This document shows positions 23,554-63,135 of a stretch of DNA of 64,000 nt, piece by piece. The notes under the pieces were generated by a model, which saw only the letters and a list, made by a program, of their open reading frames with translations, did not search any database and had not been told where the DNA came from. A program made the translations under genes and the position numbers. How positions within the stretch are numbered: position 1 is the stretch's first letter; each line of letters begins with the position of its first letter. The DNA comes from Planococcus sp. MSAK28401 (GTDB lineage: Bacteria > Bacillota > Bacilli > Bacillales_A > Planococcaceae), in contig NZ_JAAMTH010000001.1 of NCBI RefSeq assembly GCF_018283455.1, forward strand, positions 681,501-745,500, written 5' to 3'.

Positions 23554-23705
23554 TGTCCCTGTGCACGACACAATTCTCCGGGTGAAAACCTTGGTGTGGA
23601 AGGGCTTGAATGTTGCGACGTCCCTGTGCACGACACAATTCTTCAGGTGAAAACCCTGTTGTGGAAGGATTTGTATGTTGCGACATCCATGTGCACCACA
23701 CAATT
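23554..23705 (+). repeat. R repeat array, three copies at 65-bp period
   Basis: Copies at 23554, 23619 and 23684, each 65 bp apart. The two 43-base spacers resemble each other (GGTGAAAACC, GTGGAAGG, TGTTGCGA shared). The third copy is diverged (ATCCATG). It sits between the divergent amidase and M14 peptidase genes. Confidence 0.95.
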
Positions 23706-23837
23706 AATAGATGTTTCAATAACTGGAATAAAGTCCTATTTTTAATAATTAATCCTTTTGCCTACTTCGGAATACGAAATATTCTGTTATATTAAGAGCT
23801 GGTAATAAAAATTTCAAGGTGAAGGGATGTTATGTGG

Positions 23838-26594
23838 ATGAAAAAAGTTTTTGCAGGATAGCTCTCGGTAATGCTGGTGTTGTCAGCGTTTGTGCCGACA
23901 ATGGCCGCAAATGAAACGGGGGCTAGTGCGACAGAACAAGCGACTGCGCTTGAAGTGAGCCGTTCGGTCTTTTCGTTGACCGAAGCGCGCACTGTCGAAG
24001 TGTCGGCTGATTTAGGCGAAGGGGTCGATTTGGAAGATGTCGAATTCCAGTTCGGAGGAAAGCCGTTGTCTGAATGGCAGCAATGGACAGAAGGCCAACA
24101 ATACAATGGCGACCCATTCATCACAGTGGTTGAAGAGCCTTCTTTTGTGGAAGGCACGAACAAAATCACCGCCGTGCTGGAATTTGGTTTATTGTACGGG
24201 ACGGATGATTTGTCCAACCGCACGATCCGCACGCAATACCAGCAATTTATCGGCGATTATGAACTGGCGCTGATTGATTCGGCAAGCGGCGACAAAGCGG
24301 CAGCGACTGTCGAATTGAATGTCTACGATGAGTTCAAGTTTTACGATGAATTAAAACCGGCGATCGATGATATTTTCGCAGCCGCTGAAGAAGATGCGGA
24401 CAACGATCGCTACCTCGAGTATCAGACCGTCGGCAAAACGGTGGAAGGGCGCGATATTCATTTCGTCATTTTGGCGCGAGATGAGGCAGCGGTCGATCAG
24501 TATTTGAATGAAACTTTGCCGACTGCGCTTGAAGATCCGGAAAGTTTAATTGAAAAACTTGAGAACGATACGATGGGCGATTACCAAGTGCCGATCTGGT
24601 TCAATAATATCCACCCGGACGAAGTGGAAGGCGTGGACGTGCAAGTTGAGTTGTTGGAGAAATTCGCTTTGGAAGACGAAGTGAAATTCATGAATACAGA
24701 CGGCGACACGGAATTTGAAGAGAACTTGAACGTTGACGAGGTGCTCGACGATGCGATTTTCCTCTATATGTTCACGAGCAACCCGGACGGCAGAGCGGCC
24801 AACACGCGCGCGAACGCCGAGGGCTTTGACTTGAACCGCGACAATGCGTACCAAACGCAAGTGGAAACGCAGCAAGTGAATGAAGTGCTGTCGAAATGGA
24901 CGCCGCTATCATTTGTGGATTTCCACGGCTATGTGGACGGGTTCTTGATCGAACCGGCAACACCGCCGCATAACCCGAACTTTGAATACGATTTATTGAT
25001 CGACAATATGATGGAACAAGCCAATGCGATGGGCCAGGCGGGCATCGCGAATTCCGAGCTGACCTCGTATTTCATTGCCAAAGACGGCTACGGTTCCGGT
25101 TGGGATGATATGACGCCAGCGTACACCGCAATTTACGCGATGCTTCACGGTGCGCTCGGCCATACGATCGAAGTGCCGACATTGAGCCAGGACGGCTATA
25201 ATGCACTTGTCGGCAGCGGACTCGGCGCGGCGAATTACGTGCATGACAATAAAGACCAATTGTATAAAGAGCAATTGGAGATCTTCAAACGCGGCGTGGA
25301 CGGGGAAGATAACCGTGCCGTCGATGAATATTACGTCAATGCGGCAGGTGAAGTGATCGGCCGTGACCGCGGAGACAATGAAAACTTCTTCCCGGATTAC
25401 TACGTGATTCCGACAGATGACAAGAACCAGAAGAATGCGTTGGAAGCTTATAATATGGCGGATTATTTGATTCGCAACGGCGTGGAAGTCGAAAAGACCG
25501 TGAAACCTGTCGAGGTGGACGGGGTAACTTATCCGAAAGGCACATTCATCGTGCCGATGGACCAGGCGAAACGCGGCTTGGCGAATGCCATGCTCTATGA
25601 AGGTGATAATGTTTCCGATTGGGATGCGATGTATGACCCGATCGTCGTCAACTTCTCCGATTTGAGAGGCTTTGATTTGGAAGAAGTTCGTGTTGAAAAT
25701 GCATTCGATGGAAAGACTCAAGAACTTGAAGAAGCGGTTGTTCCGACAAGCACGGTAAAAGGAAACCCGCCGAAACAAATTCTCGAGAACTCCACGAACG
25801 ATGCAATCCGCGTCGTCAACGCGTTGCTTGCTGACGGCAAAACAGTGGAAGTGCTGACGGAAAGCAAAGGAAAAGCGGAGGCTGGCGATTTCGTCGTAGC
25901 AACGAACGATCTTCGCGCGTATGCCGATGATTATTATTTTGAGACGCAAGTATTCGGCAACGGCAAAAATGCCGAAACCGAAGTGCTGGAGCAGCCAAGT
26001 GTTGCGGCCACCGGTTCTGCGCAATTGAACTTCTCGTTGCGCCAGCTTGGCTTTGAACTGACGGACGCTGCAGCAGCGGATGTCATCGTCAGCGATGGCG
26101 GTTCATTTAACGCAGCACAAATCACCGGCAAAACTTTTGTCGGGATCGGTGCACCTGCACTTAACGCTGTCAGTAAGAGCGGCTTGCTTCCAGGCTTTGC
26201 GTACACGAGCACCGGAAGCAGACACGAAGGGCTCGTCAAAGCCGATGTCGCGGAGCATCCGCTGACTGCCGGATACGAGCAGCAAGAAAATCTCTACGTC
26301 ACGACCGGTTCGTGGATTTCAAGCGTACCGGAAGGCGCAGAAGTGCTCGCGAGCTTCCAGGACAGCGACGATTTCTACCTCGCCGGCTGGTGGCCTGGCT
26401 ATGAACAAGCGCAAGGCCAAACGATGGCGATTACGGCTGATGAGGGAGAGACGACGTTTAACTTGTTTGCCAACTCTCTGGCATTCCGTGCCCATACTGA
26501 GCACAGCTACCGCTTCATTGCGAACTCGATTTACGATGCAGTGAGCGTTGAAGCTGAAGTGGTGGTGAAGGGGAAAGGGAAGAAGAAGCAGTAG
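23838..26594 (+). CDS. Secreted M14 metallocarboxypeptidase with amber codon in the signal peptide
   Basis: About 918 codons. The natural start is ATG 23838 (or 23832) behind GAAGGG and encodes MKKVFAG, then TAG at 23859-23861, then LSVMLVLSAFVPTMAANE in the same frame: a signal peptide cut by a stop. Downstream, the M14 zinc peptidase domain has NNIHPDEVEG (HxxE zinc ligands), NPDGRAANTR, FDLNRDNAY and FVDFHGYVDG (third zinc ligand). The C-terminal part from about residue 600 has beta-rich domains and ends in VKGKGKKKQ. Re-initiation at 23871 would give a protein without the basic n-region, so export may be impaired unless TAG is read through or is a sequence error. Confidence 0.88.
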
Positions 26595-26598
26595 GTGA

Positions 26599-26685
26599 TG
26601 TCCCTGTGCACCACACAATTCTCCGGGTAAGAACCTTGATATAGCGGCGTTTGCGTCACGCAACGCCCCTGTGCACAACACAATT
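26599..26685 (+). repeat. R repeat pair, 65-bp spacing, 3' UTR of M14 gene
   Basis: Copies at 26599 and 26664. The first begins 4 nt after the stop at 26594. The spacer has the shared core GAACCTTGAT. A terminator follows directly. Confidence 0.95.
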
Positions 26686-26686
26686 T

Positions 26687-26727
26687 GAGATCCGCTCCAT
26701 TCGACAATGGAGCGGATCTCTTTTTAT
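26687..26727 (+). terminator. Terminator of the M14 gene
   Basis: GAGATCCGCTCCAT and ATGGAGCGGATCTC form a perfect stem, followed by five T; it starts right after the second R copy. Confidence 0.9.
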
Positions 26728-26815
26728 TCGCCAGAGAAATTTCGGAAGCCGAATGATTTGAATTCATAGAGCTGTAAGAGTAATCTGAAAATAGATTTGA
26801 GAGGAGTGGAAGTAG

Positions 26816-27658
26816 ATGGTAAAAGCAATTCCAGAAGTGACATTAAATGACGGCACAACTTTGCCGGTGACAGGGCTCGGTACATACGGACTGTGGGGAA
26901 ATGCCGGAGCGAACGCCGTCAGCAGCGGCATCAATGCGGGATACCGTTTGATCGACACGGCGTATAACTACGAAAACGAAGGCGCGGTCGGCGAAGGCAT
27001 CCGGCGCAGCGGCATTTCCCGTGACGAGCTATGGGTGACTTCCAAGCTGCCGGGACGCTATCACACATACGAAAAAGCCTTGGTGGCGATCCAGGAATCG
27101 CTATTCCGGGCACAATTGGATTATTTCGACCTGTATTTAATTCACTGGCCATTGCCGAATCAAGATACGTACGTGGAGGCATGGCAAGCCTTGATCGATG
27201 CACAGAAATGGGGGCTCGTCCGCTCGATCGGTGTCAGTAATTTCCTGCCTGAGCACTTGGATCGCATCATCAAAGAAACAGGGGTGACGCCGAGTGTGAA
27301 CCAAGTGGAATTGCACCCGTTCTTCAACCAGGCACATCAGCGAAAAGTGCACACGGACCTCAATATCCAAACGCAATCGTGGAGCCCAATCGCCAGAGCG
27401 AAGGATATCCTGTCGAATGACACCATCAGCCAAATTGCCGAATCCCATCATAAAACCATCGCGCAAGTCGTCTTGCGCTGGCAATACCAAATCGGCTCGG
27501 TGTCGATTCCGCGTTCCACCTCGCCTGAGCGCCAGCGTGAAAACCTGGCTATTTTCGATTTTGAATTAAGCGACAGTGAAATGACGGCGATTTCGGATTT
27601 GTCCCGCCCGGACGGCAGGTTGTTTGATATGGACCCGGCGACGCATGAGGAGTTTTGA
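26816..27658 (+). CDS. Aldo/keto reductase
   Basis: 280-aa NADPH-dependent reductase of the AKR5-like bacterial group. The catalytic tetrad is visible: Asp47 and Tyr52 in RLIDTAYNYENE, Lys77 in VTSKLPG and His110 in YLIHWPLP. IPRSTSPERQREN near residue 225 is the NADPH-binding segment. GAGGAGTGG precedes the ATG. A decayed copy, including its upstream 40 bases, lies at 49826-50661. An R repeat pair starts immediately at the stop codon. Confidence 0.95.
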   Translation: MVKAIPEVTLNDGTTLPVTGLGTYGLWGNAGANAVSSGINAGYRLIDTAYNYENEGAVGEGIRRSGISRDELWVTSKLPGRYHTYEKALVAIQESLFRAQLDYFDLYLIHWPLPNQDTYVEAWQALIDAQKWGLVRSIGVSNFLPEHLDRIIKETGVTPSVNQVELHPFFNQAHQRKVHTDLNIQTQSWSPIARAKDILSNDTISQIAESHHKTIAQVVLRWQYQIGSVSIPRSTSPERQRENLAIFDFELSDSEMTAISDLSRPDGRLFDMDPATHEEF

Positions 27659-27745
27659 TGTCCCTGTGCTAGACACAATTCGAGTATCCGGATTCCTGTG
27701 TTAGAAGGAATCTGGTGAAAAAATATCCCTGTGTGAGACACAATT
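27659..27745 (+). repeat. R repeat pair, 65-bp spacing, at the stop of the reductase gene
   Basis: Copies at 27659 and 27724, both somewhat diverged (CTAGA and TGAGA in the variable part). The first base follows the stop codon directly. The spacer is the least conserved of the set. A terminator comes next. Confidence 0.9.
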
Positions 27746-27790
27746 AAAGACACATCCGCTGCGAAGGCTAGCGGATGTGTCTTTGTTGTT
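27746..27790 (+). terminator. Terminator of the reductase gene
   Basis: AAAGACACATCCGCT and AGCGGATGTGTCTTT pair perfectly around a short loop, followed by a T-rich stretch. Confidence 0.9.
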
Positions 27791-27816
27791 TTATTCATCA
27801 GAACGAATTGTGTGGG

Positions 27817-27838
27817 AATTGTGTGGTGCACAGGGACA
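27817..27838 (-). repeat. R repeat copy in reverse, 3' of the MFS gene
   Basis: A full copy on the minus strand that begins 4 nt after the stop of the MFS gene (27843), so it is in the sense of that gene. A partial copy (AATTGTGTGGG) precedes it at 27806. With the forward pair at 27659 it brackets the terminator. Confidence 0.9.
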
Positions 27839-27842
27839 GGGC

Positions 27843-28991
27843 TTACGGCTGTGCAGCGGTTTGTTGAGTAGAAACCGGCTGAGCATTCGTTTTAATAAAG
27901 ATAAACAGCAAGCCAATCACTGCGAATGACAGAAAAGCGATCGGGTAGGACATGCCGTCGATCAAGACGCCCGCCGCGATCGATCCGATCGATTGCCCGA
28001 TGCCGAGCGAGAAGAACGACAAGCTCACGCCGACAGACGGCGTATCTGGGAAATGGCGTGTGCCCCAGACGATGAATAAGCCAGTCATGAAAATGAATGA
28101 GATGCCGAATAAAATCGCCGACAGGTAGATGGCGGCAGAATGCTGAATGGTCAGGGTGACGAGAGACGCCGTCGCCACCAACACGCCGAGACGGTAAGAC
28201 CAGCCGAGCCCCAGACGTTGAATAATCGTTCCGGCGATGCCGCCGATGATGCCGGCTGCGCCCATGACGATCCAGAAAATCATGCTTTCCGGCACCGAGA
28301 AATCGTGCGCTTCGGTCAGGTAGCTTCTTGAAAAGGTCCAGTAAATGGAGGAGCTGAAGCCGATGCCGATTGCCGCGAGAATCATAAAGCGCGCTTGGCC
28401 GAGCAGGCTCAGTTTAAACTGGCTGCCAGTGGATTGTTCCGGTTCTTCTTCCGGACGGTCGATCGCGCGTGCATTCCACCACAGCGTCAAGAACGCCAGG
28501 ATTGCGAACAGCACGTAGCCCCAGCGCCACTGTTCGGCAAAGACCAGTGCGACAGGGCCGCTCGCGACGACTCCGACACTCGTGCCGGTATTGATCCACG
28601 TATTGCCTCTATCGCGCTCGCGGCTCTCAAGCGATTGCGCGACGACTTGGCTGAAGGCGGGCGATACCCAACCGCTCCCGAGTCCCGCGACAAATGCGCT
28701 GATGGCGAGTGTATAGAAACCTGGCGACATAGCCATTCCGAGCATGCCGATAAAGGCAGAAGCGCCGGAATACAACACGACGTGGCGGGCGCTCATTTTA
28801 TGGATGAAGATAGCCGCTGTCACCAAGGCCAGTGTATAGGCGGCATACGCCACCGAACCGATCAATCCCGACTGGCTTTCGGATAAATTTAAGGCGCTGC
28901 TGATTTCCGGCAAGAACAAACCGAAACTGTATCTGGCGAACGCATAGGTGACACCGATCATGGCGATGCCGGGCAAAACGATTTTCCACAT
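27843..28991 (-). CDS. MFS transporter (YbfB/YjiJ-like)
   Basis: 382-aa major facilitator with about 12 helices. GVTYAFARYSFGLFLPEI in helix 1 and LNLSESQSGLIGS after it fit the YbfB/YjiJ-like branch; motif A-like residues are weak, as usual there. Likely an exporter, given control by the TetR-type gene just upstream on the same strand. Two copies of the same operator lie between the regulator's stop and this ATG, which follows GGAGTGA. Substrate unknown. Confidence 0.9.
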   Translation of the reverse strand: MWKIVLPGIAMIGVTYAFARYSFGLFLPEISSALNLSESQSGLIGSVAYAAYTLALVTAAIFIHKMSARHVVLYSGASAFIGMLGMAMSPGFYTLAISAFVAGLGSGWVSPAFSQVVAQSLESRERDRGNTWINTGTSVGVVASGPVALVFAEQWRWGYVLFAILAFLTLWWNARAIDRPEEEPEQSTGSQFKLSLLGQARFMILAAIGIGFSSSIYWTFSRSYLTEAHDFSVPESMIFWIVMGAAGIIGGIAGTIIQRLGLGWSYRLGVLVATASLVTLTIQHSAAIYLSAILFGISFIFMTGLFIVWGTRHFPDTPSVGVSLSFFSLGIGQSIGSIAAGVLIDGMSYPIAFLSFAVIGLLFIFIKTNAQPVSTQQTAAQP

Positions 28992-29010
28992 GATAATTCA
29001 CTCCTTTTAT

Positions 29011-29030
29011 TAGATAGAACGGTCATTATA
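29011..29030 (-). promoter_or_regulatory. TetR-type operator copy 1, MFS promoter
   Basis: TAGATAGAACGGTCATTATA, 20 nt before the MFS start. The same 20-base sequence with small changes recurs at 29085 and 29678, so it is very probably the binding site of the TetR-type regulator. Confidence 0.75.
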
Positions 29031-29084
29031 TTTTTAAGATAAAAAAATAGAACTGTTCTGAGTGCCGTTCTTAATTTCTTATTA

Positions 29085-29104
29085 TAGATAGAACGGTCAC
29101 TATA
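29085..29104 (-). promoter_or_regulatory. TetR-type operator copy 2
   Basis: TAGATAGAACGGTCACTATA; one base different from copy 1 and 74 bp away from it, again between regulator and MFS gene. Confidence 0.75.
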
Positions 29105-29138
29105 CTTTTGAGGTAAAAAAAGTAAGCAATCCGCTTAC

Positions 29139-29657
29139 TTATAAATGTTGCACCAAAGCCATCAAGGCATCTTCGACATCATCCAATGGAGAAAATTCCG
29201 CCAAGGATACGGCTCCTTCAAACAGCAAGGACAAGCGCGTCGCTTCGGTGGGCGTAAGCCCGTTCGACAGGAACAACTGCTTGGTGTCTTCTTTATGGTT
29301 CGTCACGAGCTGGACAATCGCGTGGTCGGGTTCGCTGACGAATTCTTCTTTCGCCCGCAAAAACATGCAGCCATTGGAAGCGGTATGCTTTAGCCAATTC
29401 AAATGGCCGATCGCTAGCCGTTGTGCAACCGAGCCCGTCGCTTGTTGTTTCGCCTGTTCGAGATAGTCCATATAAACTTGCGATCTGCGGGTCAAGATTT
29501 CCAAGATCAGTTCATCTTTGGAATTAAAATGATTGTACAGCGTCATCAGCGCCACGTCCGCTTCTTGGACAATCGCCTTCAAGCCAATGGCATGAAAGCC
29601 GTGTTGGTAAAACAGCTGTTCAGCAGCTACCAGTAAATCTTCTTTCTTGGTGCTCAT
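29139..29657 (-). CDS. TetR/AcrR-family transcriptional regulator
   Basis: 172 aa. The N-terminal helix-turn-helix is typical: LLVAAEQLFYQHGFHAIGLK, then IVQEADVALMTLYNHFNSKDEL. The C-terminal ligand domain is helical with a Cys in SNGCMFLRA. I start at ATG 29657 (MSTKKEDLL), which has GGAGGAG 7 nt upstream; the open frame extends further but without support. It likely represses itself and the MFS gene through the three shared 20-bp sites, and releases them on binding a small molecule. Confidence 0.92.
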   Translation of the reverse strand: MSTKKEDLLVAAEQLFYQHGFHAIGLKAIVQEADVALMTLYNHFNSKDELILEILTRRSQVYMDYLEQAKQQATGSVAQRLAIGHLNWLKHTASNGCMFLRAKEEFVSEPDHAIVQLVTNHKEDTKQLFLSNGLTPTEATRLSLLFEGAVSLAEFSPLDDVEDALMALVQHL

Positions 29658-29677
29658 GAGCCACTCCTCCATTAATT

Positions 29678-29697
29678 TAGATATAACGGTCACTCTA
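29678..29697 (-). promoter_or_regulatory. TetR-type operator copy 3, autoregulatory
   Basis: TAGATATAACGGTCACTCTA just upstream of the regulator's ribosome binding site, matching copies 1 and 2 at 16-17 of 20 bases. It points to autoregulation. Confidence 0.7.
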
Positions 29698-29923
29698 AAA
29701 TTAACAGCTATGGATAGCGGATGCAAGTGAAACCTGTCCAAGTGCAAAAAAGGCGTGAGGGTTTTGCTGCTCACGTGAAGGGTAAATAATTGGATGAAGA
29801 TGGTAAACGTAAATGGAGATTGTTTTGGCAGGAGTTTGAGTGCAAACAGGGAAATACGCATATAACGGGAAGTCAGGTGAATTCAGAGTTATTGTGGAAA
29901 ACGGGAAGCAGGAGGTGCACACG

Positions 29924-30598
29924 ATGAAACGGATCTTAGCCATCAGCGATATTCACGGAGAGCTGGAATTATTCAATGAGTTGCTGGAGAAAGTGGCGTA
30001 TGACGCATCGAATGACCAGCTGATTTTACTCGGTGATTATGTGGACCGCGGCCCGGATTCCAAAGGCGTGCTGGAGCGGGTCGTCGAATTGAAGCAGCAA
30101 GGCGCGATTGTGCTGCGCGGCAATCACGACCAAATGATGCTGGAAGCAGCGAGGGGTGAAACCGGCGCGGCGGGGAACTGGGTGCGCAACGGGGCGCTTT
30201 CCACTTTGCAAAGTTACGATTCTTCCATAAAAGGCATGAAGCTTCCGGCGATGGAGCTGTTTTGGGAACATATCGAGTTTTTGAAAGAGACGAAGTTTTA
30301 TTACGAAGCAGATGGCTACTTATTCGTGCATGCAGGGGTTCAGCCAGGCGTTGCGATTGAAGAGACAGATCCGTATTTGTTGATGTGGATCCGCGATGAA
30401 TTTCATCGAGGCTACGCAGGCGAAAAAAAAGTCGTCTTCGGCCACACACCGACATTTAAGCTGAGAGGGTCGGATGATACGAGCGTTTATTTTGGCGATA
30501 ACCGCATCATCGGCATCGATGGGGGCGCGGTGTATGGCGGGCAGTTGAATTGTTTGGAGCTGCCGGGTGAGCAGGTGTATTTCGTGAAGAAAGAATGA
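29924..30598 (+). CDS. PPP-family serine/threonine phosphatase-like metallophosphoesterase
   Basis: 224 aa. The metal-binding motifs of the PPP family are all present: SDIHG near residue 8, GDYVDRGPDS near 42, RGNHDQM near 66, HAGVQPG near 142 and FGHTPTF near 175. Bacterial members dephosphorylate proteins or dinucleoside polyphosphates. ATG 29924 has CAGGAGGTG upstream; the longer frame from 29840 is not supported. It stands alone between the TetR gene, which is divergent, and a convergent protease gene. Confidence 0.92.
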   Translation: MKRILAISDIHGELELFNELLEKVAYDASNDQLILLGDYVDRGPDSKGVLERVVELKQQGAIVLRGNHDQMMLEAARGETGAAGNWVRNGALSTLQSYDSSIKGMKLPAMELFWEHIEFLKETKFYYEADGYLFVHAGVQPGVAIEETDPYLLMWIRDEFHRGYAGEKKVVFGHTPTFKLRGSDDTSVYFGDNRIIGIDGGAVYGGQLNCLELPGEQVYFVKKE

Positions 30599-33844: not shown

Positions 33845-33845
33845 T

Positions 33846-33932
33846 TGTCCCTGTGCATCACACAATTTCAGCGATGAGATTGTTGTAGTGGCGGCATTCA
33901 GGGATTGAAATGTCCCTGTGCGTCACACAATT
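33846..33932 (+). repeat. R repeat pair, 65-bp spacing, 3' UTR of the YfiT-like gene
   Basis: Copies at 33846 and 33911; the first begins 1 nt after the stop codon. The second copy is followed directly by the terminator. Confidence 0.95.
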
Positions 33933-33933
33933 C

Positions 33934-35365: not shown

Positions 35366-35452
35366 TGTCCCTGTGCGCCACACAATTTCAAGAGTGAAAT
35401 GACTGTAGTAACGGAGTTTCGTGGCTGGAATGTCCCTGTGCGTGACACAATT
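35366..35452 (+). repeat. R repeat pair, 65-bp spacing, between DUF819 and MORN genes
   Basis: Copies at 35366 and 35431. The first begins 12 nt after a stop codon. No terminator follows; the next gene starts 29 nt on. Confidence 0.95.
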
Positions 35453-35765: not shown

Positions 35766-35852
35766 TGTCCCTGTGCGCCACACAATTTTAGCAGTAAGAT
35801 CCTTATCGCAGCGGGATTTCCATCTCGGAATGTCCCTGTGCAAGACACAATT
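35766..35852 (+). repeat. R repeat pair, 65-bp spacing, 3' UTR of MORN gene
   Basis: Copies at 35766 and 35831; the first begins 6 nt after the stop. A terminator follows. Confidence 0.95.
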
Positions 35853-35859
35853 CAACAGA

Positions 35860-35898
35860 AAAAGGCCATGGCGGAATTCCGCCACGGCCTTTTTTTAT
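35860..35898. terminator. Bidirectional terminator
   Basis: AAGGCC(A)TGGCGGAATTCCGCCA(C)GGCCTT-type hairpin with A run before and T run after; serves the MORN gene and the convergent FUSC-like gene. Confidence 0.9.
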
Positions 35899-35901
35899 TT
35901 C

Positions 35902-36954
35902 TTACGATTGTTGTGCTTCCTGCACGGCTTTTACGCTATTCGGATCGAAAAACTTATCGACTAAATCGTAGATGGTGATGAGTTCGTATAGAATCGTGAA
36001 TTCTGGCGGGAACAGCGTTGGGTGAAGTGCGTCATCTGCTGGCACGCGTTTACTGTTTTCCCAAAACAGATCGGTAATGCTTTTCAGTTGCTCTTGGTGT
36101 TTTTCGTGATCGAAATTGATGGAATGCCGCAAGTCGTCTGCAAGTGCCATAACGGCATCCATAATGATTTCCCGCTCGGCTTTTGTCCATTGGATTTGTT
36201 GGAACGGGGCGCGAAGCAAAGCATTCAAATGGTATTCGAAGTTATCTAGAAACAGCAATTGCCGTTCCGCCATCTGCAGCTCGGCTTCCCGGTTGCGAAC
36301 CCAAGGGTACAGGCTCGCTTCGTCGCGCTGATAATGAACCAATTTCTCGGTCTTGCGGATTTCAGTCGTCAGTTGCTTGACGATTTTTTTATCTTCCTGG
36401 AGGTTTGCATCTCCGTCGAAGAGGATGGTCCGGAAAGTATGTTCAAGCATGCTTCCGGCACGCCCGCTAATACTATGGATGCTTTTTAAGATAGCGGTGC
36501 TGTAATTTGGCGGGAACACAAGCATATTGACGGCGGTCGAGACGACCAGGCCGATCGTTGTCGTCCCTAAACGGATGAAGAACGAGAACAGGAAATTGTC
36601 ATGGATGACTTCTACCATCGCAACAGAAGTTAACGTCGCAACCAGCAAGCCGGCATGCAGATTGAGCCGGAAACACACCAGGATTGTGGCGACCGCGGCA
36701 AGCGTATAGGTAATCGGGGAATTCCCGAACAAGGTGATAAAGAACACGGCAAAAGCTGAACCGATAGCCGAAGCAGGGAAGCGGACCAGCCCTTTTTTTA
36801 TTGAATCACTGACGGTCGGTTCGATTGTCACAATCGCTGTGATGACCGCAAAGACAGGTGGCCAGTTAAACCATAGACAAATCGTGGCAGTCAAAAAGAT
36901 GGCCAACCCGGTTTTTATTATTCGACTGCCAGCGAATTGAAAGGATCGCATCAT
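35902..36954 (-). CDS. FUSC/aromatic acid exporter-like membrane protein (DUF939)
   Basis: 350 aa. The N-terminal ~165 residues form about six helices, with FNWPPVFAVITAIVTIEPTV as the family mark (ArAE/FUSC-like). The C-terminal half is soluble and helical (KIVKQLTTEIRKTEKLVH). In characterised relatives this family exports aromatic carboxylic acids; in Firmicutes the role is unproven. AAAGGAG lies before the ATG pair. Its upstream region holds two R copies shared with the divergent ABC operon. Confidence 0.88.
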   Translation of the reverse strand: MMRSFQFAGSRIIKTGLAIFLTATICLWFNWPPVFAVITAIVTIEPTVSDSIKKGLVRFPASAIGSAFAVFFITLFGNSPITYTLAAVATILVCFRLNLHAGLLVATLTSVAMVEVIHDNFLFSFFIRLGTTTIGLVVSTAVNMLVFPPNYSTAILKSIHSISGRAGSMLEHTFRTILFDGDANLQEDKKIVKQLTTEIRKTEKLVHYQRDEASLYPWVRNREAELQMAERQLLFLDNFEYHLNALLRAPFQQIQWTKAEREIIMDAVMALADDLRHSINFDHEKHQEQLKSITDLFWENSKRVPADDALHPTLFPPEFTILYELITIYDLVDKFFDPNSVKAVQEAQQS

Positions 36955-37015
36955 ATCCAGCCACTATCTCCTTTGCGTAGAATTTCTGTATTTTTAGTAT
37001 ATCATCTGTGTCGAG

Positions 37016-37102
37016 TGTCCCTGTGCACGGCACAATTTAGCAGGCGAAAAGCTTATACTGCTAGGCTTTCTTCATATAAGTGCCCCTGTGCACCACACAA
37101 TT
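37016..37102 (+). repeat. R repeat pair, 65-bp spacing, between divergent genes
   Basis: Copies at 37016 and 37081. The first has the perfectly palindromic core GTGC-ACG-GCAC. Lies between the FUSC-like and ABC genes, so here it is 5' of both. Confidence 0.92.
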
Positions 37103-37192
37103 CAAGTCGATTTCCATTAAATCGGTAAAAACTCCCAAATCACTTCAGTTGAATGTTAGAATTAACACATAATTAGCGTGAGGGGTTTTTAG

Positions 37193-39628: not shown

Positions 39629-39715
39629 TGTCCCTGTGCATGACACAATTCGGAGGATAAAATCCTTAATGCAGCAGTATTTTGGTGAAAGAATGTCCCT
39701 GTGCACCACACAATT
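39629..39715 (+). repeat. R repeat pair, 65-bp spacing, 3' UTR of ABC operon
   Basis: Copies at 39629 and 39694. The spacer has the shared core ATCCTTAATGCAGCAGTATT. The terminator follows at once. Confidence 0.95.
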
Positions 39716-39772: not shown

Positions 39773-39794
39773 AATTGTGCGGTGCACAGGGACA
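39773..39794 (-). repeat. R repeat copy in reverse, after the terminator
   Basis: Complete reverse copy, preceded by a partial one (AATTGTGTGGG at 39762). With the forward pair it brackets the terminator, the same layout as at 27659-27838. Confidence 0.9.
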
Positions 39795-42166: not shown

Positions 42167-42374
42167 TGTCCCTGTGCACGACACAATTCGGGAAGCAGAA
42201 ACCTTGATGCAGCGGTATTTCGATGTGGAAACGACCCTGTGCGCCACACAATTCTCGGGTTCAGAGAGCTTGTATTGATTCTCGCGTTGTCCCTGTGCAA
42301 GACACAATTTCAGCATGAGAAACCTTGATGCAGCAGCATTCTCCAGTCGAAACGCCCCTGTGCATGACACAATT
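42167..42374 (+). repeat. R repeat cluster, four copies
   Basis: Copies at 42167, 42232, 42288 and 42353: two 65-bp pairs joined at 56 bp. The spacers of both pairs share AAACCTTGATGCAGC, the best view of the conserved spacer core. The first copy starts 13 nt after the stop of the UvrA2 gene. Confidence 0.95.
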
Positions 42375-46897: not shown

Positions 46898-47006
46898 AAT
46901 TGTGTGGTGCACAGGGACAACAAGCAGTTCGCGGAACACGAAAACCCTTGCCCTACCTATCTTTTTTAAGAATCCAGGGGTCAGAATTGTGTGGCGCACA
47001 GGGACA
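46898..47006 (-). repeat. Two reverse R copies, 87-bp spacing
   Basis: Reverse copies at 46898-46919 and 46985-47006 between glpK and the macro-domain gene. They are 87 bp apart, which is 65 plus one 22-bp repeat. Confidence 0.9.
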
Positions 47007-49631: not shown

Positions 49632-49722
49632 ACCGTTTCAACTTCCGAATCCACTTGCTTCGCAGCGCGGTACTTCATGATCTGCGCCACATGCCACTGG
49701 GCAACAGCCAAGGTGATGGCCG
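49632..49722 (-). pseudogene. 3' fragment of a second cstA gene
   Basis: On the minus strand this encodes 30 in-frame residues ending VAQIMKYRAAKQVDSEVETV and a stop. The intact CstA at 53830 ends IAQIIKYRAAKQVDSEVETV. The rest of this copy is missing; it stops abruptly at 49722, where a truncated R repeat begins. The terminator beside it is duplicated too. Confidence 0.88.
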
Positions 49723-49723
49723 T

Positions 49724-49741
49724 GTGTGGTGCACAGGGACA
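49724..49741 (-). repeat. Truncated R repeat at the island junction
   Basis: Eighteen bases of a reverse R copy (GTGTGGTGCACAGGGACA) lying exactly where homology to cstA stops; the AATT end is lost. Confidence 0.8.
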
Positions 49742-53826: not shown

Positions 53827-53829
53827 CAT

Positions 53830-56553: not shown

Positions 56554-56570
56554 TGAAAATAGTCAACAAA

Positions 56571-56620: not shown

Positions 56621-57037
56621 TTTAAAATGAACTTATGAAATTCATTTAGTGCCATTACTCAAAATCACTCTGGAACTGTTTCTTGACTGAGCCTTAGGCA
56701 GTGCAATTTCCGGATACTCCTACTATTTTGTTTCATATCTATTGAACAGTCCAGATGAAAAAGTGGAAGGCGGCGAAGGGCAAAGATGTGCTCCCACATC
56801 GCTGCGCTACTGCGTCGCAAACGAATCGTGTCAGGCACGATTCGCTTCCTAAGGGAGCAGTGACGGAGCAGCGCGACGGAGCGACATGAGCTGAAGACCC
56901 TGGACTGAGCGTAAGCGAGGGAAGCGGCTGAAGCCATGCCCTGGCAGCTGGCATCGCGACGTCCTGTCGCGCCAGCTGCATGACCCACATCCTGTGGGCC
57001 CGAAAGCGTCCGCCTGGAACGATTCATCACTATCTTT
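56621..57037. repeat. GC-rich repeat region, no gene
   Basis: The part at 56757-57024 is GC-rich and belongs with the element at 9474: GTGCTCCCACATC and GCGTCGCAAAC are the reverse of its GACGCATC...GATGTGGGAGCAC, and it ends CGAAAGCGTCCGCCTGGAAC as the other does (AAAGCGTCCGCATGGAGC). Short palindromes are frequent (CGAATCGTGTCAGGCACGATTCG at 56822-56844). The first 130 bases are plain AT-rich DNA. Confidence 0.7.
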
Positions 57038-57829
57038 TTAATCTATTACTAAATAAACTTCCACACCGAAATGGTCCGACACCAGCGGCTTGTGCTCGCC
57101 GTTGAATATGACTTTCGACGATTTGACGGTTACGGGTTCGGTGGAGAGGATCAAGTCGATGCGCAGGTCTTGCTTGTTGTCGCTCCAGCCGGCGATTTTG
57201 CCTTTGACGGTGATGCCGGCGTCTTTTTCCTCAGCCAATGTGTACGTGTCGTGCAGCCCATTTTCCAATAAGTAAGCATAGCCTTGCTGGTCAAGTGAGG
57301 CGTCGTTATTGAAGTCGCCCATCAGAAAGGCTGGGGTGTCTGTGGTCATTTGCCCAAGCAGCTGGTCGGCCTGGAATTTGAACGGTTCTACGCTGTCGTG
57401 CCACCAGCCGGTGTGGCAGGAATAGAACGTGAAGGGCTGGTCTTCGTAATGGATGGTTGCGCCGACAATCTTCCGCGTTTTCGGGGAATTTTTGTCGGTG
57501 TTTTGGCTGACGAAGAAGCTGTGCTCCTCGGCGACTGGGTGGCGCGTCAAGATCACCAGCCCTTCTTCGTAGCGCCCGTAGACGAGGTGGGAAAAGTCCC
57601 ATACCATCGAATAGCCCGTAACGCCGAGTTGCTCCATTTCCTGAAGCAGGACCCATGCGTAATTATCGTGCTTGATGACATGTTCTGGTTGCTCGTCGAT
57701 CGACTGGTTGACTTCCTGTAAGGCGATGACGTCATATTCTTTTTCTGCGATGGCTTGTGCCAAATGGCGAATCTTGTCCAGTTGATTTTCTTCGTGCCAC
57801 GCATGGCAATTCAAGGTCAGTAGTTTCAT
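57038..57829 (-). CDS. Endonuclease/exonuclease/phosphatase (EEP) family protein
   Basis: 263 aa. The metal and catalytic motifs of the EEP fold are present: LNCHAW (Asn), ALQEVNQ (Glu), SCHTGWWHD (His), MGDFNND (Asp, Asn) and SDHFGVEV (Asp-His). There is no signal peptide. It cleaves a phosphodiester or phosphomonoester, either in nucleic acid, a phospholipid or an inositol phosphate; the HTGWW form suggests a non-nucleic acid substrate, but that is open. GGAGGAATG precedes the ATG. Same strand as ptsG but separated by its terminator. Confidence 0.9.
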   Translation of the reverse strand: MKLLTLNCHAWHEENQLDKIRHLAQAIAEKEYDVIALQEVNQSIDEQPEHVIKHDNYAWVLLQEMEQLGVTGYSMVWDFSHLVYGRYEEGLVILTRHPVAEEHSFFVSQNTDKNSPKTRKIVGATIHYEDQPFTFYSCHTGWWHDSVEPFKFQADQLLGQMTTDTPAFLMGDFNNDASLDQQGYAYLLENGLHDTYTLAEEKDAGITVKGKIAGWSDNKQDLRIDLILSTEPVTVKSSKVIFNGEHKPLVSDHFGVEVYLVID

Positions 57830-57876
57830 TGATTCATTCCTCCAAAACGGTTTAATGAGTGAGCTTCATTAGTTTA

Positions 57877-57921
57877 AAAAACCCGGCCCGATGCGAAGAG
57901 ATTCGCACGGGTCCGGGTTTG
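57877..57921. terminator. Terminator of ptsG
   Basis: AAACCCGGcccg and (cggg)tCCGGGTTT pair around GCGAAGAGATTCGC, which itself is a hairpin. On the minus strand a run of T follows. Confidence 0.88.
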
Positions 57922-57942
57922 AAGCTGGTAAGGAAGGTTCTG

Positions 57943-60003
57943 TTAGACTTCTTCAGTTCCAGCTGTGATCTCAATCAAGTCTTTCGTATTCGCGGCTACT
58001 CGGCCGGATGTTTTGATGTTCACTTGCTGTCCTTCTTGGAGACTCGTGAATACCACTGGCGTGATGATGGAAGGAGCGTGTTCGCCGATATAGGCGAGGT
58101 CCATTTCCATCAATAATTGTCCTTGTTCGACAAGGTCGCCTTGTTCAACATGGGCAGTGAAACCTTCGCCTTTCAGATGGACAGTATCGATGCCGATATG
58201 GATGAGCATTTCAGTGCCATCATCTGCTTTGAGGCCAATGGCGTGTTTCGTCGGGAACAAAGTAACGACTTCTCCGTTCACTGGCGAGAACACTTTGCCT
58301 TCGGACGGTTTAATTGCAAAGCCGTCGCCGACCATTCTGCCGGAAAAGACTTGGTCCGGTACATCGGTAATCGGTAGGATATCGCCTGTGATCGGGATGC
58401 CGAAATCAACTGTGCCGAGGCGTACCGGTGCGTCTCCAGCATCTTTTGCCTGGTCGATGATCTGGGATACATCTTGTTTTGTGCGCGGCGTTTTGCCGTT
58501 AATGATGTCTTGCATTTGCCCGCGCAGATTGTCGGAAACCGGCCCGAAAATCGCTTGGATGTTATTGCCGACTTCCATGACGCCGGAAGCACCGAGTTTT
58601 TTCAATCGGTTTTTGTCGACTGCGCTCTTGTCTTCTACACTGACGCGCAGGCGGGTAATGCAGGCATCGAGATGGGTGATGTTTTGTTGGCCACCCATTG
58701 CTTGCAGGATTTCGTATGGCAATTCACCGGCAACGGCTGAATCGTCGTCTTCGTCTGCTTCGTCGTCTTCACGCCCTGGCGTCATCAAATTGAATTTTGT
58801 GATGGCGAAGCGGAAGCCGAAATAGTAAATGACGGCGAAGAACAGACCAACAATGATAACCCAGAACCATTCCGTTCTACCCGGCATGACGCCGAACAGC
58901 AGGAAGTCGATGAGGCCGCCGGAGAAAGTCATGCCGATTTTAACATCAAGAATGTGCATGATCATAAAGGACAGTCCAGCGAATACTGCGTGGATCCCGA
59001 ACAATACTGGTGCTACGAAAAGGAATGCGAATTCAAGCGGTTCAGTGATCCCTGTCAAAAATGAAGTGAGGGCAGCTGAACCCATAATGCCGCCAACAAC
59101 TTTCTTGCGTTCAGGGCGTGCGCAGTGGTAGATCGCAAGCGCTGCTGCTGGAAGGCCGAACATCATAAACGGATATTTTCCTGTCATGAACGTGCCGGCT
59201 GTGAAATCGACTCCATCACGCAATTGCTCAATAAAGATGCGCTGGTCGCCGCGGATGATTTCGCCAGCTTCATTTGTATACGTGCCGAACTCAAACCAGA
59301 ACGGTGAGTAGAAAATGTGGTGAAGCCCGAAAGGAATCAACGAGCGTTCGACAAGGCCGAAGACGAACGCCGCAAGTGTGCGGTTTGTGTCTAGGATGAA
59401 ATAAGAGAGCGTGTTTAGGCCGTTCTGTGCAAAAGGCCACACAAGGTACATCGCGACACCGAGAAACAATGCCGAGAATGCAGTAATAATTGGAACAAAG
59501 CGCTTTCCGGCGAAGAAGCCGAGAAATTGCGGCAAGTTGATATTGTAGAATTTATTGTACATCGCTGCGGCCAATATCCCGACGATGATCCCGCCGAAGA
59601 CGCCGGTCTGCAAGGTTGGAATGCCGAGGACCATGGCGTACGCAGGATCTGAAGTGGCCAACTCTTCTGTGATGCCGCCGACTGCTTTCATTGTGACGTT
59701 CATGATCAAATAGCCGATGATCGCGGCAAGACCTGCGACGCCGTCACCGCCGGCTAAGCCAATCGCTACACCGACCGCAAAGAGCAGTGGCAAGTTGTCA
59801 AAGATGACACCGCCGGCTTCCGCCATGATAAAGAGCAATGACTGGACCCATGGGGTGCCGAAGAATGGTACCGCTTCCACAAATGTGTCTTGTGAAAAGC
59901 TTGTGCCGAATGCCAGCAAAATTCCTGCTGCAGGCAAGAGTGCGACAGGCAGCATCAATGCCTTCCCGACTTTTTGCAATGTACCGAATACATTAGTAGA
60001 CAT
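57943..60003 (-). CDS. ptsG: PTS glucose transporter, IICBA
   Basis: 686 aa, the length of the Bacillus enzyme. The EIIC domain (about residues 1-420) has ten helices and [16 protein letters not shown]; an acidic linker ([11 protein letters not shown]) leads to EIIB with Cys in [10 protein letters not shown] (near residue 462), and a second linker to EIIA, whose phospho-His is in [14 protein letters not shown] near residue 610. It takes up and phosphorylates glucose. AAAGGAGG precedes the ATG. Controlled by the RAT/terminator leader and GlcT, encoded next to it. Confidence 0.95.
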
Positions 60004-60079
60004 AAAATTTCCTCCTTTATTGGTAAAACTTACTGCGGATCAAACGGGATTGAGCGTGTTTGGCGGAAGCTAAAGCATA

Positions 60080-60134
60080 CAAAAAAGGCATGAGCGGAAA
60101 AGGCATCGGTAAAAAAAGGGGAGAGATCCCCTAG
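60080..60134 (-). promoter_or_regulatory. ptsG leader terminators
   Basis: On the minus strand, AGGGG(ATCTCT)CCCCT followed by eight T lies at 60112-60134. A second candidate is CTCATGCC plus six T at 60081-60094, whose partner GGCATGAG lies inside the RAT. Either would stop transcription before ptsG unless GlcT binds. Confidence 0.7.
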
Positions 60135-60154
60135 ATTAACCGTTGTACCTTTTC

Positions 60155-60184
60155 ATACTCATGCCTGATCGAATCAGTAACACG
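60155..60184 (-). promoter_or_regulatory. RAT sequence, GlcT target
   Basis: On the minus strand: GTTACTGATTCGATCAGG, then CATGAGTATGA. It matches the ribonucleic antiterminator of Bacillus ptsG leaders in sequence and place, and its GGCATGAG part overlaps a terminator arm, so binding of GlcT would prevent termination. Confidence 0.8.
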
Positions 60185-60190
60185 TATGAA

Positions 60191-61033
60191 TCAGTTTGTA
60201 TGGGTCAAGCGCTGCAGATGAATCGTCAGATAAAGTACTTCCGCTTCGTCGACAGGCTTTTTTAATTGGTTTTGCATCACTTTAATGAGCTTCCAAGCCA
60301 GATTATAGCACACGGGGTATTCGGCTTTCAATAGCTCTTGGAGTTTATTTTCATCACCGAGCGATTCCCCGTGATGGATGCGGTCGATCGCCCGGTGCAA
60401 ATGCTGAATCAAGCGATGGTAATTCACATTGTCTTTGCTGATGTCGACTTTCAACCCATCTTCGATCAATTCTGTCAGGCGTGAGATGAGTGCGTGGTCG
60501 CGGTTCATGTCGCGCAAGGATTTGTCAGTCACGGCACTATGGATGTGGAGTGCGATAAAACCGATCTCGCCTTCCGGAAACACGATGCCCAGCTGGCGTT
60601 CAAACTCTTTCACGACACCTTTTGCCACTTGGTATTCTTTCGGATACAAAGACTCGATTTCAAACAGGAAGGAGTTAGAGAACTGCATGTTTTGCTGGAT
60701 GCGCTTGATGGCAAAAGACAAATGATCCGTCAGCGCCACGTGAATGTGTTCATTCAACTCGGTGCCCATCTGTTCTTCGATATATAATAGTTGATCATTG
60801 ATAAACGCGATCAAGTCTTCATCGATATAAGGGATCAAGTTGACGTATTGTTCCTTCTCCGCCTCATCTTTTAACAGGAAGGTCTTATCGGCATGATCAA
60901 AGGAAATGACATCGCCTTTTTTCCGGTTGAAGCCAAGGCCGTTTCCGATCAAGACAACTTCCTTATAGACATCATGGCGGGCGATCACGACGTTGTTATT
61001 CAATACTTTCTCAATGGTCAATAGCTGTTCCAT
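60191..61033 (-). CDS. glcT: PtsG antiterminator GlcT
   Basis: About 280 aa, BglG/SacY family. The N-terminal RNA-binding CAT domain is about residues 1-55 (LTIEKVLNNNVVIARHD, GLGFNRKKGD). PRD1 and PRD2 follow, with HIHVALTDHLSFAIKR and FIALHIHSA, then YHRLIQHLHRAIDRI and VLYLTIHLQRL; their histidines are the usual PTS phosphorylation sites. ATG 61033 follows GGAGG; the ATG at 61045 lies on that site and is less likely. Located directly upstream of ptsG, the usual Bacillus order. Confidence 0.95.
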   Translation of the reverse strand: MEQLLTIEKVLNNNVVIARHDVYKEVVLIGNGLGFNRKKGDVISFDHADKTFLLKDEAEKEQYVNLIPYIDEDLIAFINDQLLYIEEQMGTELNEHIHVALTDHLSFAIKRIQQNMQFSNSFLFEIESLYPKEYQVAKGVVKEFERQLGIVFPEGEIGFIALHIHSAVTDKSLRDMNRDHALISRLTELIEDGLKVDISKDNVNYHRLIQHLHRAIDRIHHGESLGDENKLQELLKAEYPVCYNLAWKLIKVMQNQLKKPVDEAEVLYLTIHLQRLTHTN

Positions 61034-61126
61034 GATTTCCTCCATTCAAAAAAAACGCCTTGACGCGCTAAGCATAATTCAAGTTATACAGGAAAAGGGC
61101 ATGTGAAAACAAGTTTGGTGCGTGAG

Positions 61127-61362
61127 TGTCCCTGTGCACGGCACAATTCGGGCGACGAGGAGTGGGTGGAAATGGCGGCGGGAATGGATTTACGGGGGGC
61201 GGGTGGTTGGTTGCGTCCCTGTGCGTGACACAATTCACACGGGAAATGGGCCGGTTTTTGTTTGATTTCGTCGCTTGTCCCTGTGCATCACACAATTTAA
61301 GCAGCGGAAAATGCATAGGTAGTGGATTTGGGTGTGAAATAGCCCCTGTGCAAGGCACAATT
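61127..61362 (+). repeat. R repeat cluster, four copies
   Basis: Copies at 61127, 61214, 61276 and 61341, spaced 87, 62 and 65 bp. The first and last have the perfect core GTGC-N3-GCAC or near it. Lies between divergent glcT and the VanY-type gene. Confidence 0.93.
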
Positions 61363-61372
61363 TAGTTCGTTA

Positions 61373-61612
61373 AAGCGGAGCTGAAAACAGGCAGCTGATT
61401 CGAGAAGAAAGCACCTCAGAAGAAATAAGGCAAGAAGAGGGAGTAGCACAAGAATAAGCGGTAGCAAGTAAAGCAGCAGTTGCAGACACAGCGACACCAG
61501 CCACAGTCGAAGTGAATGGCTCGAATGACTATCCGTGGAAGGCAGTTGATCTGGATGGTATGATCATGGACGTAGCGAAAAGCTTGTATCCTGGTGCCCA
61601 AAGATATGCGAC
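61373..61612 (+). pseudogene. Remnant of an unknown gene (3' end)
   Basis: One frame reads STSEEIRQEEGVAQE, a stop (TAA), then AVASKAAVADTATPATVEVN and GSNDYPWKAVDLDGMIMDVA to a final TGA at 61612. It looks like the C-terminal end of a lost coding region with one nonsense codon. No start or ribosome binding site. Family not recognised. Confidence 0.4.
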
Positions 61613-61664
61613 CTGATTTTTATGTGTAATAAAGATACAGCAAAAGAAGATGGAGTTGGTTTTT

Positions 61665-62978
61665 ATGACGAAAAACAAAATGACAACAAAAGCGGTTATC
61701 TCAACAGCAGTACTCACATTGGCTATTTCCATCGTGCCAACGGGCAATGCTTTTAGCAATATCGAATTCGGCCTGATTCAAGCAGAGGCGTCGACAGCCA
61801 CGCATGTGGCGAAAGGGAATTTGAATCTTCGCAGTGGCGGTTCATTAAAGGACAAGATCATTTTGCAAATTCCTAAGGGTGGAAAAATTGAGTACATCTC
61901 GGGAAGCGGTATTTGGTACAAAGTGAAGTATGGCACGACCACGGGTTATGTTCATTCCGACTACATAACGAAAATCGAAACAGTCGCACCAGAAACACCA
62001 AAAGAAACCTCGGCGACCCATTTTGCGAAAAGTAACGTCAACCTCCGTACCGGGGCTTCGACCAAACACGAAATTATGTTGCAGATTCCTAAAAACGGAA
62101 AAGTTTCGTATATCTCAAAAAGCGGCATTTGGTACAAAGTGAAGTATGGTACGAACACGGGTTATGTTCACTCGGATTACCTAACAAAAATCGAGACAGT
62201 CGCACCAGAGACACCAAAAGAAATCCCGGCAACCCATTTTGCGAAAAGTAACCTCAACCTCCGTACCGGGGCTTCGACCAAACACGAAATTGTGTTGCAG
62301 ATTCCTAAAAACGGAAAAGTTTCGTATATTTCGAAGAGCGGTATTTGGTATAAAGTGAAGTACGGCACGAAAACGGGCTATGTTCATTCCGGCTACCTAG
62401 CAAAAATCGGAGCAGCAGAACCATCGAAATACCCGGCTCCTTCGACGGACACACCGGGCAAATATGTAGAAGACATTTTGATTGTGAATAAAAAGTATGC
62501 ATTGCCTTCAACTTACAATCCAGGAATAAATGCTACGGCGAAAAAAGCATTGGATGCTATGATTGCTGATGCAAAAAAACAGAGCGTTACATTAAAGAAC
62601 ACGAGTTCATACCGTTCTTATTGGTATCAAAACACCCTGTATAATAACTATGTGAAAAAGCATGGCAAAGCAAAAGCAGATCGCTTCAGCGCACGTCCTG
62701 GACATTCTGAACATCAGACTGGACTGGCCTTCGATTTAGGCGGAGTTAATCAAGCTCATTGGTTTGAAGAGTCGTTTGCAAACACTAAAGAAGGAAAATG
62801 GCTGGCTTCAAACGCTCATAAATATGGTTTCCACTTGCGCTACCAAAAAGGCAAGGAAGACATCACGGGTTACATGTTTGAGCCATGGCACTTCCGTTAC
62901 ATCGGGGAGGCCAACGCTACCAAAATCAAGGCTAGTGGAAAAACACTTGAAGAGTATTTCGATATTCCGGGGAAATAG
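61665..62978 (+). CDS. Secreted D-Ala-D-Ala carboxypeptidase (VanY/M15) with three SH3 domains
   Basis: 437 aa. A signal peptide (basic MTKNKMTTK, then a hydrophobic stretch) is followed by three SH3b repeats of about 68 residues, each with NLR(S/T)G and SGIWYKVKYGT, which bind the wall. The C-terminal M15 peptidase has SSYRSYWYQ, SARPGHSEHQTGLAFDLG (zinc His and Asp), and EPWHFRY (catalytic Glu, zinc His). It trims D-Ala from peptidoglycan stems. ATG 61665 has GGAG 9 nt upstream. The second and third SH3 repeats are nearly identical in DNA, so they duplicated recently. Confidence 0.92.
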   Translation: MTKNKMTTKAVISTAVLTLAISIVPTGNAFSNIEFGLIQAEASTATHVAKGNLNLRSGGSLKDKIILQIPKGGKIEYISGSGIWYKVKYGTTTGYVHSDYITKIETVAPETPKETSATHFAKSNVNLRTGASTKHEIMLQIPKNGKVSYISKSGIWYKVKYGTNTGYVHSDYLTKIETVAPETPKEIPATHFAKSNLNLRTGASTKHEIVLQIPKNGKVSYISKSGIWYKVKYGTKTGYVHSGYLAKIGAAEPSKYPAPSTDTPGKYVEDILIVNKKYALPSTYNPGINATAKKALDAMIADAKKQSVTLKNTSSYRSYWYQNTLYNNYVKKHGKAKADRFSARPGHSEHQTGLAFDLGGVNQAHWFEESFANTKEGKWLASNAHKYGFHLRYQKGKEDITGYMFEPWHFRYIGEANATKIKASGKTLEEYFDIPGK

Positions 62979-62985
62979 ACGGAGC

Positions 62986-63018
62986 GAAAAGAGTCTCATA
63001 GGAGGCTCTTTTTTTTTG
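62986..63018 (+). terminator. Terminator of the VanY-type gene
   Basis: AAGAGTCT, CATA-type loop, AGGCTCTT and a run of nine T. Confidence 0.85.
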
Positions 63019-63027
63019 CGCAAGTGG

Positions 63028-63135
63028 CGTCCCTGTGCACGGCACAATTCGAGCGATTCGAGCGAGGAAGAATGGCGGTAGGAGTAGGTTTTTATGGTGG
63101 GAGTGGTTGATTGCGTCCCTGTGCGTGACACAATT
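63028..63135 (+). repeat. R repeat pair, 86-bp spacing
   Basis: Copies at 63028 and 63114. The first has the perfect core GTGC-ACG-GCAC. They resemble the first two copies at 61127 in both spacing and spacer (GGAGTGG, GGTTG), so one is probably a duplicate of the other. Confidence 0.9.

Follow-up and report, generated by a model that had tools for sequence, protein, structure and literature searches.

Repeat units in the window

The stretch of DNA analyzed here (hereafter, the window) spans 64,000 nucleotides of Planococcus sp. MSAK28401, the genome coded G000 below (codes such as G009, G019, and G021 stand for relatives), and carries a dispersed 22-bp repeat, R (TGTCCCTGTGCNNNNCACAATT), that forms spaced direct pairs. 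We analyzed the anatomy and distribution of these R units and their relation to genes, including a gene for a REP-associated tyrosine transposase (RAYT; REP, repetitive extragenic palindrome). Counting R at ≤3 mismatches, we found 33 copies in the window versus 0.04 expected from 100 shuffles, which bears out the count in a preliminary description of the sequence; 32 of them lie within positions 23554..63135 and the remaining one at 848. That description also listed twelve 65-bp intervals between neighboring R copies, every one of which proved exact, and a recurring core in the 43-bp spacers, which is real. Its view of the 87-bp unit as one conserved element was right in outline, the unit being R-core-R with both R copies in direct orientation, but the spacers are variable and the unit is not 87 conserved bases. 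Further pairs in the window are spaced at 87 or 86 bp (46898/46985 on the minus strand, 61127/61214, and 63028/63114), and two lone inverted R copies stand behind pairs (27817 and 39773). Single copies and units in the window are as follows.

848..869, plus strand: solitary R end of the inverted ("type I") form; CTAAACGATT follows R, as in R-poor Planococcus
23554..23705, plus strand: R-43-R-43-R with divergent genes on either side
26599..26685, plus strand: R-43-R, 4 bp past the stop of a peptidase M14 gene (23871-26594) and ahead of a terminator-like hairpin
27659..27745, plus strand: R-43-R, 0 bp past the stop of an aldo/keto reductase gene (26816-27658)
27817..27838, minus strand: single R, 4 bp past the stop of a convergent MFS gene
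33846..33932, plus strand: R-43-R, 1 bp past the stop of a DinB gene and on the left border of a module missing from G009, where one R is left
35366..35452, plus strand: R-43-R, 12 bp past a DUF819 gene
35766..35852, plus strand: R-43-R, 6 bp past a 109-aa open reading frame; right edge of the module missing from G009
37016..37102, plus strand: R-43-R amid divergent genes, and left boundary of an ABC-transporter module that went undetected in the G021 and G024 zones
39629..39715, plus strand: R-43-R, 2 bp past the stop of a 546-aa gene and ahead of a terminator-like hairpin
39773..39794, minus strand: single inverted R past a terminator-like hairpin
42167..42253, plus strand: R-43-R, 13 bp past a 763-aa gene
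42288..42374, plus strand: second R-43-R, in tandem after the unit at 42167
46898..47006, minus strand: R-65-R (87-bp spacing), antisense, flanked by two plus-strand genes
49720..49741, minus strand: degraded single R, 3 mismatches
61127..61235, plus strand: R-65-R (87-bp spacing); left edge of a VanY-gene module found only in G000 among six genomes' zones
61276..61362, plus strand: R-43-R
63028..63135, plus strand: R-64-R (86-bp spacing) past the VanY gene; right edge of the VanY module

Among 20 window genes scanned, 18 had Pfam matches. Co-regulation of the genes beside R units was considered and set aside, as no common theme was seen among these matches. The VanY/SH3 gene (61650-62978) holds a 216-bp tandem repeat (2.3 copies) at 61904-62409.

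R is confined to two chromosomal zones

Genome-wide, R was counted at ≤1 mismatch in a 19-base pattern, with the reversed pattern as a control. The 3.54-Mb G000 chromosome contained 81 copies (control, 0), all of them in two zones, zone A (C1:682–776 kb; 93 kb) and zone B (C1:2504–2540 kb; 36 kb). All 82 copies in G009 likewise fell into two zones, as did all of the matches listed for G019 (68 of its 76 copies). Judged from dnaA and dif-like sites, the zones lie on opposite arms (replichores) in all three genomes. We considered whether their positions are mirror symmetric; the distances from dnaA are similar and unequal (682–776 versus 997–1032 kb in G000; 652–731 versus 841–898 kb in G009), so we draw no claim from such symmetry.

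The 65-bp period extends beyond the window. The zones of these three genomes contain 80 such pairs, and all 66 exact 65-bp pairs in four more genomes (G021, G011, G004, and G024) lie within two stretches per genome, so the spacing is no accident of the window. In ten further Planococcus genomes, a looser end pattern gave 80 matches (control, 0 in each), of which 79 lay in an A-like or B-like zone by position; the exception was G034:2151740, in a genome whose origin position was not located. G035 had zero matches to the looser pattern. Two-zone clustering also occurs in Planococcus genomes with a different, inverted form of the repeat. Zone A of G000 had 12 and 16 alignable stretches in common with zone A of G014 and G027, and zone B had one and none, so the zone B correspondence depends on the RAYT and a few neighboring proteins rather than on general synteny.

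Exact R was present in 46 of 261 genomes of the family, belonging to 4 of 19 genera. One 87-bp unit found no match in 72,556 plasmid records, and 38 stretches of viral contigs held one exact R each, as a raw count.

R units combine a core with quantized spacings

Spacing counts cover zones A and B of G000, G009, and G019 (six zones). Besides the 80 pairs at 65 bp, R copies paired at 75–77 and 86–88 bp, giving spacings of 65, ~76, and ~87 bp in which the distance from core to R takes two sizes ~11 bp apart. The core reads roughly AAA..C.TG..G..GC.GG.TTT. With a core weight matrix trained on the 80 units with 43-bp spacers, the core lay 9 bp after the first R (R1) and 10 bp before the second (R2) in 78 of these 80 training units. 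Outside the training set, the best core position was at 9–10 and 20–21 bp in all nine units with 53–55-bp spacers and at 19–21 and 21–22 bp in all 26 units with 64–66-bp spacers. By our count, 9 of the 35 longer-spacer units fell short of 7.9, the 99% value of the null, and two of the nine scored negatively; the core is thus faint in some units. The ~11-bp steps suggest helical phasing on double-stranded DNA. Arguing against such phasing, R-47-R units of G159, a member of another genus (g37; stretches covered, 560–800 kb, 2700–2860 kb, and the first 1 kb), have a right core-to-R distance of 14–15 bp.

The two R copies of a unit differ in their starts, R1 beginning with TGTC in 67 of 80 units and R2 with TGTC in 36 and CGTC in 30. 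Each of the 80 pairs spaced at 65 bp is direct; inverted R neighbors in the six zones numbered 10, at 71-135 bp. The small hairpin that the preliminary description proposed for the TGTG and CACA halves is possible as a stem, but it has just 4 bp around a variable loop (−2.2 kcal/mol, z of −1.0 for a single folded R), and the stem is broken in the inverted form of the element. G014 and G027 carry this form as ~150-bp elements with R-like ends inverted.

A RAYT gene is linked to R

We looked for a linked RAYT-type (Y1) transposase gene and found one in G000, in zone B and outside the window. The sole PF01797 match in the genome (C1:2504566–2504901; 65.3 bits) lies in a 201-aa protein that matches the NCBIfam model REP_Tyr_transpos (NF047646) at 83.5 bits, narrowly above the cut-off of 80, and the IS200 model at 26.3 bits, under its cut-off of 55. 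The protein also matched PDB entry 4er8, a TnpA-REP structure (E of 6e-4). By eye, its translation contains HYH in TNHYHILIK and Y in YIHRNPI, which we take, from their positions, to be the HUH motif and the catalytic tyrosine.

R pairs stand on both sides of the G000 RAYT gene, and R flanked the gene on both sides at 10 of 10 RAYT loci examined in R-rich genomes (≤4 mismatches; the count leaves out the RAYTs of G069) and, by coordinates, at that of G021 as well. A Y1 match was present in 29 of 46 Planococcus genomes, some of these matches being IS200-like or fragments, and in 12 of the 14 that carry ≥20 exact copies of R. Neither profile nor protein searches found a RAYT in the R-rich genomes G004 and G024, and none was detected in G029 and G061. 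In seven R-poor genomes, the B-zone R copies lie within ~10 kb of a RAYT or RAYT remnant, and R-poor species carry inverted elements near their RAYTs. The linkage extends to G159, whose RAYT lies at 796 kb, ~0.3 kb after the R-47-R arrays; 21 of its 22 exact R copies fall within 673–796 kb, and the core follows R1 by 8–9 bp in all seven R-47-R units. By eye, the G159 contig opens with a dnaA-like sequence, in which case the RAYT would lie on the right arm; no dif site was located there. Of the three options that the preliminary description had named (a REP/RAYT-type mobile repeat, a protein-binding array, or an RNA element), these findings best support the first; the quantized spacing and the strong conservation of R would also fit the second.

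Several RAYT neighborhoods had further features. G027 contains three RAYT copies within ~45 kb (G027:C1:2830001-2910000), two of which have several similar inverted elements of ~150 bp nearby. It also has another local repeat near its RAYT region, with the motif GTGGTTCT every ~22 bp (stretch L131:10398-11173). A weak RAYT-like remnant in G030 (C1:2361936-2362220; 34% identity, four internal stops) has an R-like end ~1 kb away. A 746-aa gene (stretch L072:15509-17749) beside an R array behind a RAYT has a C-terminal part that by eye resembles cell-wall-binding repeats. In a sister genus, relatives of G000 zone-A genes lie within ~6 kb of the RAYT of G086 (C1:2690001-2710000), a hint of possible exchange between A and B.

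R units often follow stop codons and favor one orientation

About half of the units lie close behind genes. A start ≤20 bp from a sense stop codon was seen in 22/43 units in G000, 21/45 in G009, and 20/39 in G019, all units considered. For loci with a sense gene upstream, by our own simple gene calls, the figures were 20/24, 21/24, and 19/22, and random placement in the same gap would give 5.8, 3.7, and 7.1 such loci, respectively. R orientation is also biased, being mostly plus in zone A (36/45, 30/41, and 28/35) and mostly minus in zone B (36/40, 39/43, and 36/40), so that R copies in both zones lean toward the lagging-strand template. Units amid divergent genes, which have no gene end to follow, lean 8:1, 8:2, and 6:1; these units are largely orthologous and are not independent loci.

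R is conserved at orthologous sites

In orthologous 65-bp units, the fixed R positions differed at 6/630, 7/540, and 6/570 sites (~1%), versus 24–30% for NNNN, 23–34% for the core, and 40–54% for the remaining spacer. Because units were selected with ≤2 mismatches in R, the low R divergence is partly ascertained. The rate of spacer divergence is not out of the ordinary, as the unit flanks diverge too (64–78% identity over 60–100 bp). In 30 of 58 ortholog pairs, the spacer of another unit matches as well as or better than that of the ortholog, and unit replacement or conversion is thus possible.

We made 206 directed comparisons (species pairs both ways), of which 107 were occupied, 3 were empty, and 96 were without matched flanks. 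With 107 of 110 matched-flank comparisons occupied, visible decay of R is rare. The three empty sites did not define the ends of the element.

R bounds some gains and losses of genes

Some gene differences have base-level junctions at R. The RAYT is missing from G024 and G004, whose close relatives G009 (92.8% identity) and G019 (90.7%), respectively, bear it. At the G024 junction, the second R of the upstream unit is followed by the sequence that normally follows the second R of the downstream unit; at the G004 junction, that sequence comes after the first R of the upstream unit. The two junctions differ, and each falls inside one 22-bp R. Base-level R junctions were also read for a two-gene module that G009 lacks, with one R left, and for a 216-aa gene missing from G019. 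The edge of the VanY module in G009 was less clean at base level. To judge from these junctions, R is a site where strands join, through RAYT action or through ordinary deletion between short repeats. A length of 22 bp is short for RecA-dependent exchange, which mildly favors a dedicated process.

Across 15 pairwise comparisons of six genomes, we counted 227 gene-scale insertions or deletions, 69 with R at both edges and the junction and 120 without R. Two-sided R cases numbered 30 in zone A versus 15.5 expected and 39 in zone B versus 10.2 expected under a null of distance-matched intergenic pairs. The base-level junctions carry more weight, because these counts repeat shared events and alignments are prone to break at R. 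In the 69 two-sided cases, flank overlaps cluster near −22 (one R) and near −87 and −109 (one unit), and also near −129. After dropping modules <300 bp after trimming, we kept 34 of 39 module rows and merged them into ~14 modules, two of them overlapping. Judged within the compared zones of the six genomes, several modules are patchy and some occur in one genome only; a zone B module (35839–37155), for example, was present in G000, G009, and G004 and not in the zones of G019, G021, and G024.

Origin of the R-core-R family

The best reading of these findings, to which we give a probability of roughly 0.58, is a REP- or TIR-like (terminal inverted repeat-like) family spread locally by the RAYT, whose units now serve as recombination points. 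R would be the cognate repeat of the resident RAYT, a HUH transposase with one tyrosine that probably cuts at R, and R-core-R would be a small nonautonomous element spread by the RAYT, mostly near the RAYT gene and biased to one orientation on the lagging-strand template. A protein may bind the spaced R-core-R. R would further act as a strand-exchange point, with R-by-R joining removing or bringing in the genes that lie between units, so that the zones would act as loose cassette arrays. Zone A, on the right arm, may tentatively be a former RAYT neighborhood or else a partner of the RAYT zone in DNA exchange.

Several observations weigh against this reading. Zone A contained no RAYT in eight Planococcus genomes. 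The R copies of G004 and G024 are not more decayed despite the absence of the RAYT, where losses may be recent. Empty sites left the element ends undefined, and gene direction accounts for part of the orientation bias. R lacks a GTAG tag and apparently a good hairpin, its doublets are direct, and its spread is not genome-wide, so the family is not a standard REP. The quantized spacing suggests double-strand binding, for which a single-strand enzyme has no obvious need.

That last point leads to the strongest of the other explanations, an unlikely one, in which R-core-R is a double-stranded site for a host protein (a regulator, nucleoid, or chromosome-domain factor) and the RAYT is merely nearby or an early seeder. 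The near constancy of R beside a diverged non-core spacer, the core offsets ~11 bp apart among Planococcus unit types, the high occupancy of matched-flank sites, and the persistence of R without a RAYT would all fit such a site. It accounts poorly for the proximity of RAYTs in two genera and in R-poor species and for the switches of element type among subclades. Moreover, the right-hand distance in the genus of G159 breaks the 11-bp rule, and the low R divergence comes partly from picking units by R.

The position of units just behind stop codons, the ~14 R-bounded and often patchy modules, and flank overlaps matching one R or one unit in length could instead reflect an integron-like cassette system run by the RAYT, in which modules of a gene plus R-core-R would be excised and reinserted at R by single-strand transposition chemistry in the two zones. 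We consider this rather improbable, as ordinary deletion at direct repeats explains the losses, no module was seen at two places in the compared zones, the sites are direct, unlike attC, and 120 of the 227 differences lack R. An ordinary miniature inverted-repeat transposable element family of a DDE insertion sequence, independent of the RAYT, would fit the ~150-bp elements with inverted R-like ends in R-poor species, but it is hard to credit given that R clusters with the RAYT and takes a direct R-R form in the R-rich clade, a judgment made with target duplications inspected by eye and no search aimed at a parent DDE element. Least credible is an RNA 3′-untranslated-region or terminator element: many units do lie between a stop codon and a terminator-like hairpin, several 87-bp units carry such a hairpin in the spacer, and positions 49/60 covary in 19 units with 87-bp spacing (0/500 shuffles), but the 80 units with 43-bp spacers have no excess of compensatory pairing (slid registers are alike save for isolated pairs), the window had no Rfam match at gathering scores, whole units mostly fold no differently from shuffles (z above −1.1 in 8 of 11 and −2.1 to −3.8 in three), and units also lie antisense and amid divergent genes, leaving that option of the preliminary description unsupported.

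Relation to known systems and significance

Integron cassettes have a recombination site directly after the stop codon, are co-oriented, are gained and lost as in an array, and use a tyrosine integrase and a folding attC site. R is likewise found behind stop codons, co-oriented, with array-like gene gain and loss; it differs in having a HUH Y1 enzyme, direct repeats, and no covariation in 65-bp units. REPINs are inverted REP doublets forming hairpins, unlike the direct Planococcus doublets. As presented in PMC8049555, REPIN populations are persistent small repeats duplicated by a single-copy, vertically inherited RAYT, and to that extent the small, persistent repeat population beside the Planococcus RAYT is similar.

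GTAG and CGTC REPs, REPtrons, and TIRYTs are described in PMC3733652, where the word Firmicutes is absent from the main text. The Planococcus system resembles REP/RAYT systems in its RAYT-type Y1 gene flanked by R, in the intergenic R doublets often behind genes, and in the CGTC start of many R2 copies; it departs from them in lacking GTAG and in having a 4-bp stem, direct doublets, a core at set distances, and two zones only. As in TIRYTs and TIRtrons, a RAYT-like gene accompanies non-REP repeats, and the reversed R end (CAGGGACA) resembles GGGGWSAS by eye, an imperfect and unscored likeness, but around the Planococcus RAYT, R units occur in both direct and inverted arrangement. Most described TIRYTs belong to a subclass (2.1) with a C-terminal helix-turn-helix, according to PMC6006769, unlike the 201-aa Planococcus protein. 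Judged by titles, the open PMC literature yielded no description of the R element; the matches listed for the string TGTCCCTGTGC had animal-biology titles.

The way in which RAYTs mobilize their repeats is an open question in the field, as is the reason that hosts retain them. Here, one cultivable genus combines one enzyme, a three-part repeat, two confined zones, and RAYT-minus relatives with scars inside R. This setting makes testable the action of a RAYT at its repeat, local spread on the lagging strand, and the turning of repeats into the boundaries of gene cassettes.

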